From NCBI RefSeq assembly GCF_007994075.1, contig NZ_VIWU01000001.1:7006001-7070000 (forward strand): DNA of 64,000 bases, given 5' to 3'. A program made the translations under genes and the position numbers. The DNA is from Pseudonocardia hierapolitana (GTDB lineage Bacteria; Actinomycetota; Actinomycetes; Mycobacteriales; Pseudonocardiaceae). Shown here piece by piece: positions 20,874 to 58,689 of the stretch (the stretch's first letter is position 1; every line of letters begins with the position of its first letter). The notes under the pieces are model-generated. The model searched no databases, had not been told where the DNA came from, and worked only from the letters and a program-made list of their open reading frames with translations.

Positions 20874-23800
20874 ATGGGATTCGACCACGCCGTGGCGACG
20901 CGCGTCGTCGTGCGGGTGCTCGGTGACGCGGGCGAGCCGGTCGGCGCGGGGTTCCTGCTCGGGCCGGACCTGGTGGCGACGTGCGCGCACGTCGTCGCCG
21001 AGGCGCTGGCCCTCGATCCGTATGCGGCAGTGGGCCCGGCCGAGACGCTCCGGCTGGACTTCCCCATGGTGGCCGCCGACGGTGCGCCGGTCCGCGATGC
21101 CCGCGTCGTGCGGTGGGTCCCGATCGAGCCGGACGGCTCGGGGGACATCGCCGTGCTGGGCTTGTCCGGGCCCGTACCGGCAGGCGCGCGGATGCCGCCG
21201 CTGCGGCGGATCGACCAGCTCTGGGACCACCCGTTCCGCGTGCTCGGCTTCCCCGACGGCCTTGCCGACGGGGTCTGGTCGACGGGCCGCATCCGCGGCC
21301 GGCAGGCAACGGGCTGGTTCCAGCTGCAGGCCGCCCCGGGCGACCAGCCGATCGTGGGTGGGTTCAGCGGCTCGCCGGTCTGGGACGACGAGAGCGGGGC
21401 CGTCGTCGGCATGACGGTGGCCGCCGACCGGACGGGGGAGACGACCACCGCGTACCTGATCCCGATCGACCAGGTCCTCGGGACCGACCCGGAGCTCCTG
21501 CCCTGCCCGTACCGCGGACTGGAGCCGTTCGGCGAGGAGCACGCCGAGTTCTTCTTCGGTCGCGACGACGGCGTCGCCCAGGTCGAGGAGGTGCTGGACC
21601 GGCAGCCGATCGTCGCGGTCGCGGGGCCGTCCGGAGCGGGGAAGTCGTCGTTGCTGCGGGCGGGGCTGCTGCCGAGGGTCCGCTCCGCCGGTGCACGCGT
21701 CGCGGAGCTGCGCCCGTTGCCCGGCCAGCCGGTGGACGAGCTGATCGACGCGACCCTCGCCGACCTGCCCGACGACGGGCGCACGATCGTGTTGGTCGAC
21801 CAGTTCGAGGAACTGGCTGCCGCCGACGCGGCCGGTGCGCGGCGGCTGCTGGCCGTACTCGGCGATCGGCTCGACGCCCACGCCCGCAGGCCCGACGGGA
21901 ACTGGCCCCTCCAGGTCGTGCTGACGGCGCGGTCGAGCACGCTCGAGGACGTCCTGGCTCCGGAGATCGCGACGCGGCTGGGTGCCGGCACCGTGCTGGT
22001 ACCCCCGATGAACCGCCGCCAGCTGCGCGACGCCATCGTCGCCCCCGCCGAACGTGCCCCCGGCCTGGTGTTCGAACCGGGTCTCGTCGACCGCATCCTC
22101 GACGACGCGGCCGCAGAACCAGGCCGGCTGCCGCTCGTCGAGTCCCTGCTCACCGAGCTGTGGGAGCGGCGGGCGGGCGGGGTGCTCACGGTCGAGGCCT
22201 ACGAGCGCAGCGGCGGTGTCGCCGGCGTCGTGGCCACGCGGGCCGAGCAGGTGGTCGCCGCGCTCGACGTGCCGGCGGACGACCCGGGCCTGCGCCGGCT
22301 CTTCACCGGCCTCGCCGGGACCGACCGCGACGGCCGCTTCGTGCGCAGGCCGCTGCCCACCGCCGACCTGGATCCGGCGCTCCGACCGCTCGCCGAGCGG
22401 CTGGTGGCCGGACGGTTGCTGGTGCTGGAGCGCCCCCCTGCAGGCGAGGAGCGGCTGCAGCTCGCCCACCAGGCGCTCATCGAGCACTGGCCGAGGCTGC
22501 GCGGTTGGCTGGCCGAGGACCGGGACTTCCTCGCCTGGCGCGAGGAGGCCGAAGCGCAGCGCGATCGCTGGGAGACGGCCGGCCGCGACGACGGTGCCCT
22601 GCTGCGGGGCGTCTCGCTGGCCGCCACCGCCGAATGGCTGCCACGGCGCGCACCCGACGTGCCGCTCCCGCTGCAGGAGTTCGTCGGGCGAAGCCGGGCC
22701 CGGCAACGGCGCGAGGTGCGGCGCTGGCGCGTGGTCACCGCGGTGCTCGCCGTGCTGGTGCTCGCCGCGGGAGCGCTCGCGGCCGTCGCCGTCGCCCGTG
22801 GGCAACAGGTCACGGCCCAGCTGCGGCTGGCGGATGCGCAGATCATGGCCCGCTCCGCGATGGACCGGCTGCCGGGCGACCCGGTCACGGCGTCCGCGTT
22901 GGCGCTGGCGGCACACCGGTCGGACCCCGACAACGACGCCGCTCGGACGACGCTTTCCCGGCTGGCGTTCGGCATGCAGTCGGTCGACGCCGTGTACCCC
23001 GACGTCAACGCACTGCCCGGGGGCGCTCTCTCCACGTCCGAAGACGGGAACACGGTACTGGTCAACGACTCGAGCCAGGCCACGATCGTCACCGGGGCGC
23101 TCGGATCCGCACCGGCTCACTGGGTACTGCCGGATCGCCCGCGGGAGGAGAACCGACTGATCATGAGCCGCGACGGCCGAGCGGTCGCCGGGCTCGACCT
23201 GACCGGCCGGGTGCTCCTCTGGGACGTCGTGCAGCGCAGCGGCCCGGTCGTGATCAGTGACGGGCTGGGCGCCGCGCTGCAGGGGACGCTCTACTTCTCC
23301 CCGGACCAGACGCGGCTGTACTGGCTGACCGTGGCGCCGGATCGAACCCGCCGGCTCGTCGTGTGGGACGTGCGTGCCGCGGCCGCGGCCCCGGTCGGCC
23401 TCGGGCCGATCACGGACCCGCAGATCGGGCGGGTGGCGCTCACCGCCGATCCCGGGGCGGTGGCCGAGTACCGGACGACCGGGATGACCGTCCGCTCGAT
23501 CGCCGACGGCGCGGTCCGGGCCACGTTCCCGCCGGAGGGTCTCTCGGGGGATCGGTACGCCGTCACGTGCGCGCCTGGTGCGGCGCTCGTCTGGGACGCC
23601 ATGACCGGGCAGCAACTGCGCCGCCTGGCGCGTCTCACCGAGGACTGCACACAGGAGATCCTGAAGAACGAGCTGACCGGTACCGGCGAGTTCCTCGTGG
23701 AGGCGTACCCCGCCCTCGTGGACCGCGACATCGAGCGCTGGCGGATCACGTCCGTGCACACCGGGCAGGTCTACGAGCTGCTCGCTCCGCCGCACACGGG

Positions 23801-24917
23801 GGAGGCCTGGCGCAGCAGCGATCACACAGGGATGGAGGCGGCGATCGTGGGCGACCGCCTCGTGGTCTACGACCTGTGGCAGCGCTCGGTGCTGCGGCTG
23901 CACGCCGACCCAGCGGACGCCGGGCCCGGGGCGTTCCTGACCGCCGACCGGCGGTACGAGGTGTCCATCGGCGCGGACGCGATCATGGCCGTCGACGCGG
24001 TGACGCGCGGGCTTGCCGGGACCCTTCCCGGGTCCGCGCTCGCGGACAGCGGCGACCGGCGGCCCGTGATGAACGCCGACTCCGTCGGGGTGATCACGTC
24101 CGCCCCGGATCACGTCTCCTACGCCGAGTACGCCGTCCCCGGCTTCACCCGCATCGGGAACTGGACCCTGCCGGGAGGGCCCGCGCGGCCGGATGGCGCC
24201 CGGCCGTCCGTCGACTCGCTCGCCGACCAGGTCGCCGCCCTCAACAACGGGGTGCTCAGCGCGTGGGACCGGCGGACGGGCCAACCGATCGGCACGCCGA
24301 TCGATCTTGCCTCCGACGCAGAACGGGCCCGGCACTTCCGCAGCGACCTCGAGGTTCGGCTGCGGCCCGGCCCCGCGTGGGAGGCCGCGGTGCCGGGCCC
24401 GCACGGGGTCGAGCTCTGGGACATGGCCACGGGTCGACAGGTGGCCGTGCTGGAGTCCGAGTCGATCGGAATGATGTTCGACGCCGCGGGCGAGCGCCTG
24501 GCGGTGATCGAGAACGGCTGGTCGGTGCACGTGTGGAACGTCGACGAGCGCCGGCGCATCGGGGTGCCGGTCGTCACCCCGTCCGCATTGGTCCCGCTCG
24601 GGTTCACACCCGACGGTCTGCTCGCCGGTGGCGTCATACCCGATCCGGAGACGAGCGGCCGCATCCTCCTGATCGAGCCGGAGACCGGCAGGCAGCGGGG
24701 CGGCTTCACGCTCGCGAAAGGCGTCGACGCCGACACGGCGCTCACCGCTGATGGCCGGTTGGTCGTCGCGGGTGCCGACGGAGGCAGGCCGGTGGCGTTC
24801 CCCCTGGCCGTGCAGGAGTGGACGGACCGCCTGTGCGGGCTCCTCGATCGCCCGTTCACCGACGGTGAGCGGGCCCTGTTGCCCGCCAGCATCGACGCCG
24901 AACGGCCCTGCGGCTAG
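20874..24917 (+). CDS. Trypsin-like protease - STAND NTPase - beta-propeller protein
   Basis: A 1347-residue multidomain protein. Residues 1-200: trypsin-like protease with His39 (ATCAHVV), Asp91 (GDIAVLG) and Ser165 (GGFSGSPV), an intact triad. Residues 210-610: STAND/nSTAND1 NTPase, beginning CPYRGLEPFGEEHAEFFFGR, Walker A GPSGAGKSS (251-259) and Walker B TIVLVDQFEEL (304-314). One membrane-spanning segment lies at about 620-640, followed by a C-terminal region of repeated beta-strand units (LLWDV, LVVWDVR, ELWDM, VHVWNV) typical of WD40-like propellers. GGGGGG precedes the ATG. Proteins of this build are sensor-effectors in bacterial conflict or signalling. Its stop codon is formed by the end of the 168-bp repeat that follows. 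Confidence 0.85.
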   Translation: MGFDHAVATRVVVRVLGDAGEPVGAGFLLGPDLVATCAHVVAEALALDPYAAVGPAETLRLDFPMVAADGAPVRDARVVRWVPIEPDGSGDIAVLGLSGPVPAGARMPPLRRIDQLWDHPFRVLGFPDGLADGVWSTGRIRGRQATGWFQLQAAPGDQPIVGGFSGSPVWDDESGAVVGMTVAADRTGETTTAYLIPIDQVLGTDPELLPCPYRGLEPFGEEHAEFFFGRDDGVAQVEEVLDRQPIVAVAGPSGAGKSSLLRAGLLPRVRSAGARVAELRPLPGQPVDELIDATLADLPDDGRTIVLVDQFEELAAADAAGARRLLAVLGDRLDAHARRPDGNWPLQVVLTARSSTLEDVLAPEIATRLGAGTVLVPPMNRRQLRDAIVAPAERAPGLVFEPGLVDRILDDAAAEPGRLPLVESLLTELWERRAGGVLTVEAYERSGGVAGVVATRAEQVVAALDVPADDPGLRRLFTGLAGTDRDGRFVRRPLPTADLDPALRPLAERLVAGRLLVLERPPAGEERLQLAHQALIEHWPRLRGWLAEDRDFLAWREEAEAQRDRWETAGRDDGALLRGVSLAATAEWLPRRAPDVPLPLQEFVGRSRARQRREVRRWRVVTAVLAVLVLAAGALAAVAVARGQQVTAQLRLADAQIMARSAMDRLPGDPVTASALALAAHRSDPDNDAARTTLSRLAFGMQSVDAVYPDVNALPGGALSTSEDGNTVLVNDSSQATIVTGALGSAPAHWVLPDRPREENRLIMSRDGRAVAGLDLTGRVLLWDVVQRSGPVVISDGLGAALQGTLYFSPDQTRLYWLTVAPDRTRRLVVWDVRAAAAAPVGLGPITDPQIGRVALTADPGAVAEYRTTGMTVRSIADGAVRATFPPEGLSGDRYAVTCAPGAALVWDAMTGQQLRRLARLTEDCTQEILKNELTGTGEFLVEAYPALVDRDIERWRITSVHTGQVYELLAPPHTGEAWRSSDHTGMEAAIVGDRLVVYDLWQRSVLRLHADPADAGPGAFLTADRRYEVSIGADAIMAVDAVTRGLAGTLPGSALADSGDRRPVMNADSVGVITSAPDHVSYAEYAVPGFTRIGNWTLPGGPARPDGARPSVDSLADQVAALNNGVLSAWDRRTGQPIGTPIDLASDAERARHFRSDLEVRLRPGPAWEAAVPGPHGVELWDMATGRQVAVLESESIGMMFDAAGERLAVIENGWSVHVWNVDERRRIGVPVVTPSALVPLGFTPDGLLAGGVIPDPETSGRILLIEPETGRQRGGFTLAKGVDADTALTADGRLVVAGADGGRPVAFPLAVQEWTDRLCGLLDRPFTDGERALLPASIDAERPCG

Positions 24918-25081
24918 TGCTCCCCGCCGGAGGTTCGCCAAGGGTCTCGGCGGCCCAGCTCCACGCTGGACGCAGCGGCGAACAGCCCGAGTACGCCCGG
25001 TACGAGGGCTGTCCGCCGCCACGCCCAGCGAGAAGCTGGATCCACCGATACCCCCGACGAACCTCCGGCGGGAAGCACTAG
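24914..25081. repeat. 168-bp structured repeat, copy 1 (E1)
   Basis: Ends are inverted repeats of 24 bp with one mismatch: 24914-24937 begins CTAGTGCTCCCCGCCGG and 25058-25081 ends GGCGGGAAGCACTAG. Inside are the hairpin CCAGC-TCCAC-GCTGG (24955-24969) and a 14-bp stem (24975-24988 with 25006-25019, one mismatch) enclosing GTAC-GCCCG-GTAC. A second copy at 57564-57731 has the same length and layout with stem substitutions that remain paired. E1 occupies most of the 342-base gap between the STAND gene and the ABC operon and provides the STAND stop codon. Confidence 0.88.
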
Positions 25082-25259: not shown

Positions 25260-27068
25260 GTGACCGTCACCGCCGTCCGGTCCGAGGAGGGCACGCCCGT
25301 CGAGCCGGTGGCCGAACCGCCTCAGGGCGCGTCACTGCTGGCGCTCGCCGAACCGGTACGCCGCCGACTCGTCGTCGCGGTCGCACTGGGTGCGGCGGGT
25401 GCGGTGCTGGGCGTCGCAGGCCTCGTCGCGCTGGCCTACGCGCTGCGCGAGCTGTTCCGGCTCGCGCCGGACGGGACGGCGCTGCTGGTACCCCTGGTGG
25501 CGGCGGCCGTCGGCGTGGTCGGTCGGTACGGGCTGCGGGCGTGGGCCTTCCAGGTCTCGCACATGGCGGCCTTCGACCTGGAGACCGTGCTGCGCACCCG
25601 GCTGGCCGCGCACCTGGGCCGGGTGTCGCTCGGCGACGTGCTGCGCCTCGGATCGGGGCCGTTGAAGAAGATCGTCCAGGACGACGTGCGCGCGATGCAC
25701 AGCGCCGTGGCCGACGCGACCCCGCTGGTGGGCTTCGCGGTGGCGCAGCCGGTCGCCGCGCTCGTCGCGCTCGCGGTCGTGGACTGGCGGATGCTGCTCG
25801 CGGTCCTCGTGATCGTGCCGGTCGTGGTCGTCGCGATGCAGCTCGCCATGCGCGACCACGCGACCGAGCGCGCCCGCTACGACCGGGCGAACGAGTCCAT
25901 CAACGCGGCGGTCGTGGAGTTCGTCCAGGGCATGCCCGTCGTCCGCACGTTCGACGACGGCAGCACCTCGTTCCGCCGGTTCGCCGCGGCGGTGGAGGGG
26001 TTCACCGAGGCCACCGCGAACTGGCAGCGGAAGAGCCGCACGCCGGGCGTGCTCGCGCGGATCGCGATGACGCCGGTGCCCACCCTGCTCGTCGTGCTCG
26101 CAGTCGGGATCTGGCTCGTGGCCGGAGGGCTGGTGGAGCCGGCGTGGCTGCTGGTGGCGCTCCTGATCGGCACGCTGCCGGTCGAGTCGATCCTGCCGCT
26201 GATGTACCTGAACAACTACGTGAACGACTCGAAGGCAGGCGCAGCCCGGATCGCCTCGGTGCTCGCGCTGCCCGAGCTGGCGGAACCCGCGCACCCCCGC
26301 CCGCCGGGCGACGGCTCGGTGCGCCTCCGCGGCGTCACCTTCGGCTACGGCACCGATCGGGGACGGCCGGCGCTCGACGGCGTCGACCTGGAGATCCCCG
26401 CCGGCACCGTGTGCGCGCTCGTCGGCCCGTCCGGCTCGGGCAAGTCCACGCTCGCCCGGCTCGTCGCGCGCTTCCACGACGTCGTCTCCGGATCGGTCGA
26501 GGTCGGCGGGGTCGACGTGCGCGAGATCGGCACGCCCGGCGTGCTGCGCCACGTCGCGCTCGTCTTCCAGGACCCGTTCCTGATCGACGACACGGTGGCC
26601 GAGAACATCCGGCTCGGCCGCCCGGAGGCCACCGAGGCCGAGGTGGAAGCCGCGGCGCGGGCGGCGGGTGCCCACGACTTCATCGTCTCCGAGCTGCCCG
26701 ACGGCTACGCGACCCGCGTCGGCGAGCGCGGTGGGCTGCTGTCGGGGGGTCAGCGGCAACGGGTCACGATCGCGCGGGCGATGCTCGTCGACGCCCCGAT
26801 CGTCGTGCTCGACGAGGCCACCGCCTTCGCGGATCCGGAGACCGAGGCGCAGATCCAGGAGTCGATCGCGGCGCTCACGCGCGGGCGCACGGTGATCGTG
26901 ATCGCCCACCAGCTCGCGACCGTCGCAGGCGCCGACCAGATCGTCGTGCTCGGCGACGGCCGGGTGGCCGAGCGGGGCACGCACATCGAGCTGCTGGCTG
27001 CGGGTGGGAGCTACGCGCGGATGTGGGAGCACCACGAGCGGGCACGGGCATGGGGGGTACGGGCATGA
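25260..27068 (+). CDS. ABC transporter, fused membrane and ATPase domains (first half-transporter)
   Basis: 602 residues: about six membrane segments (residues 25-330), then an ATPase domain with Walker A GPSGSGKST, Q-loop VFQDPF, signature LLSGGQRQR, Walker B IVVLDEAT and switch His in IAHQL. GTG 25260 follows a strong GGGAGAGGGGG site. It overlaps the next ABC gene by ATGA, implying a heterodimer. The pair resembles the IrtA/IrtB and YbtP/YbtQ systems, exporter-fold proteins that import iron-siderophores; the later MFS gene fits siderophore traffic. Assignment to iron is inferred from architecture and neighbours. Confidence 0.85.
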   Translation: MTVTAVRSEEGTPVEPVAEPPQGASLLALAEPVRRRLVVAVALGAAGAVLGVAGLVALAYALRELFRLAPDGTALLVPLVAAAVGVVGRYGLRAWAFQVSHMAAFDLETVLRTRLAAHLGRVSLGDVLRLGSGPLKKIVQDDVRAMHSAVADATPLVGFAVAQPVAALVALAVVDWRMLLAVLVIVPVVVVAMQLAMRDHATERARYDRANESINAAVVEFVQGMPVVRTFDDGSTSFRRFAAAVEGFTEATANWQRKSRTPGVLARIAMTPVPTLLVVLAVGIWLVAGGLVEPAWLLVALLIGTLPVESILPLMYLNNYVNDSKAGAARIASVLALPELAEPAHPRPPGDGSVRLRGVTFGYGTDRGRPALDGVDLEIPAGTVCALVGPSGSGKSTLARLVARFHDVVSGSVEVGGVDVREIGTPGVLRHVALVFQDPFLIDDTVAENIRLGRPEATEAEVEAAARAAGAHDFIVSELPDGYATRVGERGGLLSGGQRQRVTIARAMLVDAPIVVLDEATAFADPETEAQIQESIAALTRGRTVIVIAHQLATVAGADQIVVLGDGRVAERGTHIELLAAGGSYARMWEHHERARAWGVRA

Positions 27069-56706: not shown

Positions 56707-57731
56707 TGCTGGACGGGTTCGCCAGGGCCGACGTCGCCACGCCGGGCGGTGCGCGCATCCGGGTGCGCACCGCCGGGACCGGGCCGCCGCTGGTGCTGCT
56801 GCACGGCTACCCGCAGACCTCGGCGATGTGGCACCTCGTCGCGCCCGAGCTGGCCCGCGACCACACGGTGGTGCTCGCCGACCTGCCCGGGTACGGCGAC
56901 AGCCTCGCCCCGCCGGACGCACGCGTCGAGGCGTTCGGCAAGCGCGCGATGGCCGCGGAGATCGTGGCCGCCATGGCCGAGCTGGGGTTCGACCGGTTCG
57001 CGGTGGCCGGGCACGACCGCGGCGCCCGGTGCGCGTACCGGCTCGCTCTGGACCACCCGGACACCGTCACGGCGCTCGCGGTGCTCGACATCCTGCCGAC
57101 GGCCGACGTCTTCGCGCGGGTCGACGCCGCCTTCGCCCGGTCGGCGTGGCACTGGTTCTTCCTCGCCCAGCCCGGCGACCTGCCGGAGCGGTTGATCGCC
57201 GCCGACCCGGACGCGTTCTTCCTCCGCGGCGCCACGCCGTTCGCTCGGGACGCGCTGGCCGAGTACCGCGCGGCCTGGTCGCGCCCCGAGGTGGTGCACG
57301 CGATGTGCCAGGACTACCGGGCGGGCGCGACCGTCGACGTCGCCGACGACGAGGCCGACCGCGGGCGGCGCACGATCGCATGCCCGACGCTCGTGCTGTG
57401 GGGGACCGGCGGCCCGCTGGGCCGGGAACCCGACGTCCTCGGCACGTGGCGGGCGTGGGCACCGGAAGCCACCGGGCACGCCCTGGAGTGCGGGCACCAC
57501 GTCGCGGAGGAGCGCCCGGCCGAGACGATCGTCGCGGTGCAGGAGATCCTCGCCAGTCCCATACCAGTGCCCCCCGCCGGGAGTCCGCCGAGCAATTCGG
57601 CGGCCCAGCTCCACGCTGGCCGCACCGGCCGGCGGCCCGAGTACGCCCGGTACGAGCAGCCTCCGTCCGGCGCACCCAGCGAGAACCTGCATCCACCGAC
57701 TTACCCAGCGGACTCCCGGCGGGGACACTAG
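56706..57731 (+). CDS. Fluoroacetate-dehalogenase/epoxide-hydrolase-like alpha/beta hydrolase
   Basis: 341 residues. The nucleophile is an Asp in GHDRGAR (Asp104), as in haloacid dehalogenases and epoxide hydrolases. Positions matching the fluoroacetate dehalogenase pocket are present: Arg105 and Arg108, His149-Trp150 (SAWHWFF), Tyr204 (DYRAG) and the catalytic His264 (CGHHVAEER). The family length ends near residue 283 (VQEILAS); residues from about 287 to 341 are encoded by the 168-bp repeat E2, whose terminal TAG is the stop. ATG 56706 overlaps the upstream stop, so it is in the amidohydrolase operon. Confidence 0.83.
   Translation: MLDGFARADVATPGGARIRVRTAGTGPPLVLLHGYPQTSAMWHLVAPELARDHTVVLADLPGYGDSLAPPDARVEAFGKRAMAAEIVAAMAELGFDRFAVAGHDRGARCAYRLALDHPDTVTALAVLDILPTADVFARVDAAFARSAWHWFFLAQPGDLPERLIAADPDAFFLRGATPFARDALAEYRAAWSRPEVVHAMCQDYRAGATVDVADDEADRGRRTIACPTLVLWGTGGPLGREPDVLGTWRAWAPEATGHALECGHHVAEERPAETIVAVQEILASPIPVPPAGSPPSNSAAQLHAGRTGRRPEYARYEQPPSGAPSENLHPPTYPADSRRGH
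57564..57731. repeat. 168-bp structured repeat, copy 2 (E2)
   Basis: Same length and layout as E1 (24914-25081). Terminal arms 57564-57588 and 57708-57731 pair (one ends GGGAGTCCGC, the other starts GCGGACTCCC). The internal block at 57597-57619 is identical to 24947-24969 of E1, and 57635-57656 is identical to 24985-25006; CCCAGCGAGAA and ATCCACCGA are also shared. Stem bases differ between copies but remain paired. E2 forms the end of the dehalogenase-like frame and stops 4 bases before the LysR start. Confidence 0.88.
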
Positions 57732-57735
57732 GCCG

Positions 57736-58689
57736 GTGGTGAGGCGAGCGACGTCGCTGGCGAACCTCGACCTGAACCTCCTGGTGATCCTGCGGGAGCT
57801 GCTGCGCGAGCGGAACGTCACCCGCGCGGCGCGCCAGGTCGGGATCACCCAACCCGCCGCCAGCGCCGCCCTCGGCCGGTTGCGCCGGCACTTCGGCGAC
57901 GAGCTGCTCGAACGCACCCGCGGCGGTTTCGTCCTCACGCCGCTCGGGGCGCAGCTCGCCACGCAGATCGAGACCGTCTGCGCCGGCGTCGAGCGGCTCT
58001 TCTCCACCGATCCCGCGTTCCGGCCGGAGGACTCCGAGCGGGAGTTCGTGGTGCTGATGCCCGACTACGTGCTCGCGGCGCTCGGCGAGGGCCTCTCCCG
58101 GGTGATGCACGGGGAGGCGCCCGGCACCCGGCTGCACATCAAGGTCGTCCACGAGGCGATGCCGTCCGACCTCCTGGAGACCTTGCGCGTGATCGACGGC
58201 ATCGTGTCCGTGCCGATGCCGAGGTTCCAGGTCACGGGGATCCGCGCACTGGAACTGTTCCGCGACCGCTGGGTCTGCGTCGTCTCGGCCGACAACCCCG
58301 TCGGCGACAGCCTGGAGCTGGCCGACCTCGAACGCCTGCCCTGGGTGGTGCCCCACCACCCCGACGGCGAGTACCCGGCCACGTCGCCGCTCGCGCCGCT
58401 CTTCGCCCGGCTGTCGGCGCGCCCGCAGGTGGCCGTGCGGGTCGACAGCTACCAGGCCACCCCGTACTTCGTCGCGGGAACGGGGCGGGTCGCGGTGATG
58501 CAGCGGCGGCTCGCTCTGCGCTTCGCCGACCGGCCCGACCTGCGGGTGCTCGAATGCCCCGGCGACCCGCCGCCGATCGTCGAGACGCTGTGGTGGCACG
58601 CGAAGAACGACGAGGACGACGCCCACACCTGGTTCCGGTCGATGGTCGCGCGGGCGGCGAAGGACGACTGCGCGTCAGGTGACCGGTAG
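57736..58689 (+). CDS. LysR family transcriptional regulator (NodD/LinR-like)
   Basis: 317 residues. Helix-turn-helix DLNLLVILRELLRERNVTRAARQVGITQPAASAALGRLRRHFGDELL; the style matches the NodD/NahR/LinR branch that responds to aromatic compounds. The effector domain follows (VVLMPDYVLAALGEGL, DRWVCVVSADNPV, VDSYQATPYFVAGTGRVAVMQ). GTG 57736 lies 4 bases after repeat E2. Likely regulator of the amidohydrolase/dehalogenase operon upstream. Its 3' end overlaps VapC by 15 bases, convergently. Confidence 0.85.
   Translation: MVRRATSLANLDLNLLVILRELLRERNVTRAARQVGITQPAASAALGRLRRHFGDELLERTRGGFVLTPLGAQLATQIETVCAGVERLFSTDPAFRPEDSEREFVVLMPDYVLAALGEGLSRVMHGEAPGTRLHIKVVHEAMPSDLLETLRVIDGIVSVPMPRFQVTGIRALELFRDRWVCVVSADNPVGDSLELADLERLPWVVPHHPDGEYPATSPLAPLFARLSARPQVAVRVDSYQATPYFVAGTGRVAVMQRRLALRFADRPDLRVLECPGDPPPIVETLWWHAKNDEDDAHTWFRSMVARAAKDDCASGDR

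Follow-up and report, generated by a model that had tools for sequence, protein, structure and literature searches.

A 168-nt MITE family of Pseudonocardia, probably moved by IS630-type transposases, whose hairpin is under selection to pair on one strand

The window analyzed here, a 64,000-nt stretch of the Pseudonocardia hierapolitana genome, contains two 168-nt sequences, E1 and E2, that belong to one family and are set between or within genes of mixed function (Table 1). The gene upstream of E1 encodes, in its scanned part, Trypsin_2 and nSTAND1 NTPase domains, a type of domain combination discussed in connection with defence or signalling proteins, while the hydrolase ORF upstream of E2 gains a tail of approximately 55 residues from read-through of the element. 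The original prediction had paired these two sequences on the basis of their length and common parts, and both are borne out: the quoted arms, the GTAC-GCCCG-GTAC centre and CCCAGCGAGAA are present in E1 and E2 alike, and CTAG stands at three of the four outer ends, the remaining one (the left end of E2) being CCAG. The sequence CCAGCTCCACGCTGG occurs exactly twice in the window, once in each copy, and allowing up to two mismatches gave nine matches against 0.56 expected. The Rfam scan of the window returned no match at the gathering score, in line with the earlier statement that the element was not recognised as a known family; a search of four loci at E values up to 5 gave five matches, all below the gathering score, one of them a microRNA model on the hairpin L037. 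No description of the family was found in the literature, where subscription journals were mostly outside coverage so that this is weak evidence of absence, and the apical sequence was not found in literature text.

Table 1. Coordinates of E1, E2, their parts and their neighbours in the window
Feature	Position	Strand	Description
E1	24914..25081	-	Complete 168-nt hairpin copy with CTAG at both ends; minus is the folding strand, which tolerates G.U
Left CTAG of E1	24914..24917		Target/duplication; the TAG inside is the stop codon of the upstream gene
Right CTAG of E1	25078..25081		Target/duplication
E1 5' outer arm of folding strand	25050..25078	-	Resembles terminal repeat of IS630 element L121 (19/26, 22/30)
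GTTCGTCGGGGGT in E1	25050..25062	-	Identical in the L121 terminal repeats (G000), at the same distance from TA
E1 3' outer arm of folding strand	24917..24945	-	Other terminal inverted repeat
E1 structured core	24946..25049	-	Covaries apart from the arms
E1 apical motif CTCGTACCGGGCGTACTCGG	24987..25006	-	GTAC-CGGGC-GTAC loop above a 2x2 internal loop
E2	57564..57731	-	Second copy, divergent subfamily, orientation as E1; model match G000:7063564-7063731
Upstream neighbour of E1	21000..24917	+	Trypsin_2 + nSTAND1 NTPase protein (scanned part)
Downstream neighbour of E1	25263..27068	+	ABC transporter with membrane domain
Alpha/beta hydrolase ORF	56748..57731	+	Runs through E2 and stops at its right TAG
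LysR-type regulator	57736..58689	+	Starts 5 nt after E2

Searched as DNA against the genome of the window (G000; a single contig of 8.86 Mb), the element gave 58 matches with both strands of the palindrome counted, and a covariance model built from 40 sequences gave 94 matches, which resolve into 50 places when the better strand is kept. Forty-three of these places score above 98 bits and the weakest scores 41, some of the low-scoring ones being partial or lacking the usual ends; 31 of the 50 copies are exactly 168 nt long. By DNA search, E1 and 14 other copies are 91–100% identical to E1 over nearly the full length, and most others are 73–79% identical. Short (168 nt), present in 50 places and devoid of a transposase gene, the element is in these respects like a MITE. 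Copies expected in related genomes are present as well, with DNA matches in 14 of the 35 other same-genus genomes (13 candidates scored per genome). Scanning genome contigs with the 20-nt apical pattern further identified at least 119 stretches, with 80 loci among the matches listed; the hosts among these include many Pseudonocardia and Streptomyces, together with Amycolatopsis regifaucium, Actinacidiphila and Prauserella flavalba, whose copy is not clean. Single pattern matches in Nocardioides and in a Myxococcota MAG were rejected as family members because they are not long hairpins. E1 had no match among plasmids and phages, a Streptomyces copy of the hairpin matched 59 plasmid records, and the apical pattern had no exact match among viral contigs. 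Some copies are altered in structure. At L075 (G000:3700914-3700999), the core is deleted and only ~40–45 nt of each E1-type arm remain, each of the two flanking called genes ending in one of its terminal CTAGs, and at L188, L209, L215, L227 and L228 (Streptomyces/Actinacidiphila), the hairpin carries extra GC-rich palindromes, such as CCCAGCGGTAGCTGGG, within an arm.

Folding of the element corrected the original prediction in one respect. CCAGC-TCCAC-GCTGG, which had been read as a local hairpin, does not form; in the minimum-energy fold, each of its arms pairs with the opposite half, and the fold and strand given earlier are replaced by one rod-like hairpin that is stronger on the minus strand. 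E1 alone folds with −159 kcal/mol on minus and −124 kcal/mol on plus, forming 77 pairs versus 66, and all 11 pairs gained are G.U. With flanks included, the values are −166 kcal/mol on minus (z −14.7) and −131 kcal/mol on plus (z −12.8), and none of 200 shuffles folded as well.

This rod-like fold is also the one that covaries. In an alignment of 40 sequences picked for diversity, with a structure of 77 pairs derived from one of those sequences, 93.1% of cells pair, as compared with 37–45% in slid controls. Both sides have changed at 49 of the 77 pairs, so the stem changes are compensatory as the original prediction had it, and none of 500 shuffles, which ignore relatedness, reached any of the measures. 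The core alone (45 pairs) has double changes at 22 pairs, again unmatched by 500 shuffles. Across all cells of the alignment, the ratio of G.U to A.C on the folding strand is 452:45; taken separately, the arms give 161:11 and the core 279:27, and G.U predominates in 38 of 40 sequences in the arms and likewise in the core. The loci collected with the apical pattern, which by construction all have the apical motif in common, provided a separate set. Here, G.T to A.C stands at 295:21 in Pseudonocardia (31 of 35 loci, four being too short or identical), at 240:68 in Streptomyces/Actinacidiphila (39 of 40 loci, one being too short) and at 18:4 in three other loci, and 29/31, 39/39 and 2/3 of them, respectively, fold better on that same strand.

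Recent changes within clusters of closely similar copies revealed the same asymmetry. The test set comprised 71 copies, namely 31 exact 168-nt copies from G000 and 40 windows from G022, some of them off register by 1–2 bases; 53 of the 71 fall into clusters with four or more members that have 151 or more of the 168 letters in common (sizes 15, 19, 13 and 6), and the remainder were excluded. Private G→A and T→C changes on the folding strand occurred at 16 of 1158 G.U positions, where they yield Watson–Crick pairs, versus 4 of 3267 Watson–Crick positions, where they yield A.C (p = 7e-7), while private C→T and A→G changes that create G.U numbered 26 of 3267. Transversions fell at 13 Watson–Crick and 8 G.U pairs. 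At a stricter threshold of 160 common letters, the corresponding counts were 8/792 (G.U to Watson–Crick), 1/2226 (to A.C) and 16/2226 (to G.U). A strand-specific mutation bias does not account for these data, because G→A and T→C do occur at G.U pairs, where the fold is kept, and rare where A.C would result and the fold be broken. Selection acting only to weaken the hairpin of the mRNA strand was also rejected, since, of the three classes counted, changes that restore pairs at G.U sites occur at the highest rate. Selection for strand-specific pairing is thus well supported, and it favours pairing on one strand only, as in an RNA. Constraint on individual copies after insertion looks weak at L025/L344, one of two insertions common to G000 and G022 (the other being L071/L362) and the one compared gap-free: 14 pairs differ, two of them by a double change, but A.C mismatches occur at two pairs of the G000 copy, and another four pairs are disrupted in either the G000 or the G022 copy. 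These mismatches therefore argue against strong constraint on each single copy.

The original prediction had also suggested that empty sites be sought in relatives, and they were found. The joined flanks of G000 copies, queried against 16 same-genus genomes, gave element-free matches across five of the six junctions, each in at least 7 to 14 genomes among the matches listed. Twenty loci were aligned for empty sites; at L061, a plain single CTAG lies in G004, and at other empty sites in relatives the junction differs (e.g. CTAC, no CTAG or small gaps), several not being CTAG today. CTAG is the terminal tetranucleotide at 49 (5') and 52 (3') ends of the 87 full-length copies of G000 and G022. 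The tetranucleotide is itself ~15-fold depleted in G000, with 66 occurrences versus 984 expected from base composition over 400 kb (20 samples of 20 kb, L091–L110). By crude gene calls nearly all copies are intergenic; only E2 and L113 are crossed by an ORF in G000, 2 of 40 G022 copies were flagged inside a called gene, and in 16 of 50 G000 copies, E1 included, the terminal CTAG contains the exact end of a called gene. Tenzen and Ohtsubo reportedly described in 1991 a preference of IS630 for the TA in CTAG. According to PMC2170065, an IS630-type transposase duplicates TA; because the target here is CTAG, a TA duplication and a CTAG duplication are indistinguishable.

The partner transposon family is not visible from the window alone. 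In G000, four IS630-type (DDE_3) matches were identified, L121 occurring once and L122–L124 three times, and all are bounded by inverted repeats at CTAG. Overall, inverted repeats were found in 13 of 33 loci examined, L147, L153 and L168 having other ends that match no arm; in Streptomyces/Amycolatopsis genomes, candidate repeats were found in 11 of 30 loci. Twelve elements were compared with 214 arms, gap-free over 26 nt and with 400 shuffles. The best matches reached 20–21 of 26 for L121, 21 for L122 and up to 22 for L154/L156/L162, and for at least one end of each of these no shuffle in 400 was as good; the best-matching arms come from copies in G015, G010, G014 and G001. Scores as high as those observed did arise among the shuffles at both ends of L158, L170, L298 and L304 and at a single end of L154, L162, L297 and L306. 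The E1 arm matches L121 at 19 of 26 positions (22/30), including GTTCGTCGGGGGT at an identical offset. For the E2 arms, the best partner match is 17/26, and two candidates for the E2 arm type are only suggestive: L304 (18–20/26, with 1 in 400 shuffles as good at each end) and L295 (19–20/26, 0/400), whose left end, at 1.2 kb from the transposase ORF, may be part of something else. As a reference, 100 TAGTG-anchored genomic 26-mers, not cleaned of element ends, had a mean best match of 14.9; seven reached at least 20, and we would guess that these are mostly the elements' own ends.

The proteins of L121, L122, L162 and L295 are IS630 transposases by NCBIfam (above cut-off) and are 25–38% identical to one another. 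Since the arms match such divergent IS630 types, one core carries arms that resemble several IS630 lineages. No DDE_3 match was found in G001, G007, G014 or G016, all of which have copies, and the IS630 ends of Streptomyces/Amycolatopsis genomes poorly match the arms of local copies, the best value being 20/30, to a copy in an actinomycete MAG. The searches made revealed no identity to a known IS end, as the original prediction required, although the arms do resemble IS630 ends. In A. regifaucium, the hairpin copy L206 and an IS5-type (DUF4096) element, L363, share the end TAGGGCGTGTCC, and it is only suggestive from this shared end that a second transposase family, of IS5 type, may move the same core there. 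Copy number, intergenic position, CTAG ends, empty sites, IS630-like arms and IS630 genes in the genome are all observed for the E1/E2 family; the case for movement by IS630-type transposases is strong for the family and fair for E1. The earlier reading as a structured RNA or MITE-like mobile element under structural constraint thereby holds in both its parts, as the element is mobile (50 places in G000, empty sites, IS630-like arms) and its stems covary.

The copies are also non-randomly oriented. With dnaA of G000 at 3.54 Mb, a position with which sampled GC skew broadly agrees (two samples are opposite), 39 of 50 G000 copies have the folding strand directed against the fork, as do, among the matches listed, 28 of 40 G022 copies, giving 67 of 90 against replication for both genomes combined (p = 4e-6). 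Among 48 listed G022 copies, the count is 34 with the terminus placed at 5.1 Mb, 33 at 4.6 Mb and 30 at 5.6 Mb. For the copies listed in the two genomes, the folding strand is antisense to co-directional flanking genes in 35 versus 12 cases (n = 47), and at convergent or divergent sites a replication bias persists (28/41, p = 0.03). Coding bias was rejected as the cause of orientation, given this persistence and an almost even leading/lagging split of coding bases (50.4%, summed over 18 of 20 G000 samples with crude gene calls). Replication and gene direction are not fully separated, because 39 of 47 co-directional flanks lie on the leading strand. In most copies, the strand that forms the stronger hairpin is absent from the lagging-strand template and lies antisense to co-directional genes, suggesting that the opposite orientation is costly; this would agree with strong hairpins being lost when the lagging-strand template carries them. 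For pneumococcal repeats, the corresponding passages of PMC3049150 give ~61–63% on the leading strand, said there to mirror coding bias.

Taken together, we consider it probable that the family is an IS630-type MITE with a strand-selected structured core, for the fold of which the most likely role, as RNA, would be in the element's own spread or persistence. E1 and E2 would be 168-nt non-autonomous elements moved in trans by IS630/Tc1-mariner transposases that recognise the outer arms, and they would insert at the TA of CTAG sites, often those that contain a TAG stop codon; cut-and-paste at TA is what the IS630/Tc1-mariner family predicts. In addition, the entire element is a hairpin under selection to pair on one strand, in the manner of an RNA, and its transcript may serve spread or persistence, e.g. 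as a bound or RNase-III-processed RNA. Confidence in the IS630 MITE reading is slightly lower because the E2 arms are without a firm partner, and the antisense placement relative to most co-directional flanks counts against it, making the route of transcription puzzling. A bolder version, which we offer tentatively and think doubtful, is that the core is a transposition passenger that repeatedly exchanged its "coat" of terminal repeats and so travelled with different, deeply diverged IS630 transposases (and possibly with one of IS5 type in Amycolatopsis) across Pseudonocardia, Streptomyces and relatives, so that the core RNA, having a function of its own, and not the ends, would be the long-lived replicating unit.

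The same antisense placement bears on the proposal that the hairpin is a host regulatory or processing signal (a terminator or mRNA-stability element) spread by transposition, as ERIC or Correia repeats are. The nearly always intergenic position, often right at stop codons, would suit such a signal, and passages of PMC10969869 and PMC2229807 describe RNase III cleavage, or exposure of RNase E sites, for other MITE hairpins; the better-folding strand is, however, antisense to most co-directional genes and the gene contexts are mixed, making this role rather unlikely. The selected molecule might instead be single-stranded DNA, with the hairpin forming during replication or transposition as in IS200/IS605, REP and attC systems. 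G.T wobble in DNA could also produce the strong strand asymmetry, orientation tracks replication in two genomes, and Y1 transposases occur in three copy-bearing genomes (G003, G015 and G022). Yet in most copies the folding strand, judged from dnaA, is on the leading-strand template and not on the exposed lagging-strand template, the arms match terminal repeats of IS630 (DDE) elements, and no Y1 transposase (PF01797) was matched in G000, G001, G004 or G014, all with many copies. Mobilisation of the IS200/IS605, RAYT or attC type is set back by this placement and by the missing PF01797 match in G000, and we regard a DNA target of selection as improbable and infer that RNA is the selected molecule. 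Finally, the family could be an ordinary MITE in which covariation reflects arm-to-arm conversion (quasi-palindrome correction) and exchange of matched terminal repeats, the fold being functionless. Some double changes are indeed transversion swaps (e.g. CG to GC), the arms come as blocks that match different IS630 ends, and the shared insertion L025/L344 has decayed. A preference for G.U over A.C confined to one strand is not what correction would produce, however, and that bias is present in the core, in the arms and within clusters of similar copies, which renders this explanation very unlikely.

Among known systems, the pneumococcal RUP, an IS630-Spn1-type MITE, is a precedent for an IS630-driven MITE and resembles the present family in being short (107 bp), repeated and tightly folded with paired terminal repeats, IS630-like ends and a TA target, according to passages of PMC2229807 and PMC3049150. 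As compared by description, RUP is linked to one IS whereas the E1/E2 core carries arms like three divergent IS630 types, and the strand-specific covariation present in the E1/E2 family is unmentioned in those passages. ERIC and Correia/NEMIS are likewise MITE-like repeats that form hairpins and yield processed RNA (passages of PMC10969869 and PMC2229807); they belong to other phyla and, beyond the Rfam scan, are set apart by description. YPAL/RU-2 of Yersinia has the same length (168 bp) and is palindromic and mobile with known empty sites, but as portrayed in part of PMC2229807 it is without TA ends and makes duplications of 3–26 bp, whereas the E1/E2 family, compared by description, has CTAG ends. 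The IS630 elements L121 and L122–L124 of G000 share the CTAG target, and the L121 arm resembles that of E1, but they differ in carrying a transposase gene, and past its terminal repeat L121 has no hairpin core in the stretch read.

Bacterial MITEs are usually treated as transposon debris, their hairpins being a consequence of the inverted repeats. In the E1/E2 family, the internal core is better conserved than the ends and covaries apart from them, and pairing is one-stranded even among very similar copies, which is evidence that the fold of a MITE is itself selected. The question of what role a MITE RNA plays thus becomes testable in culturable actinomycetes, with orientation against replication as a second measurable handle.
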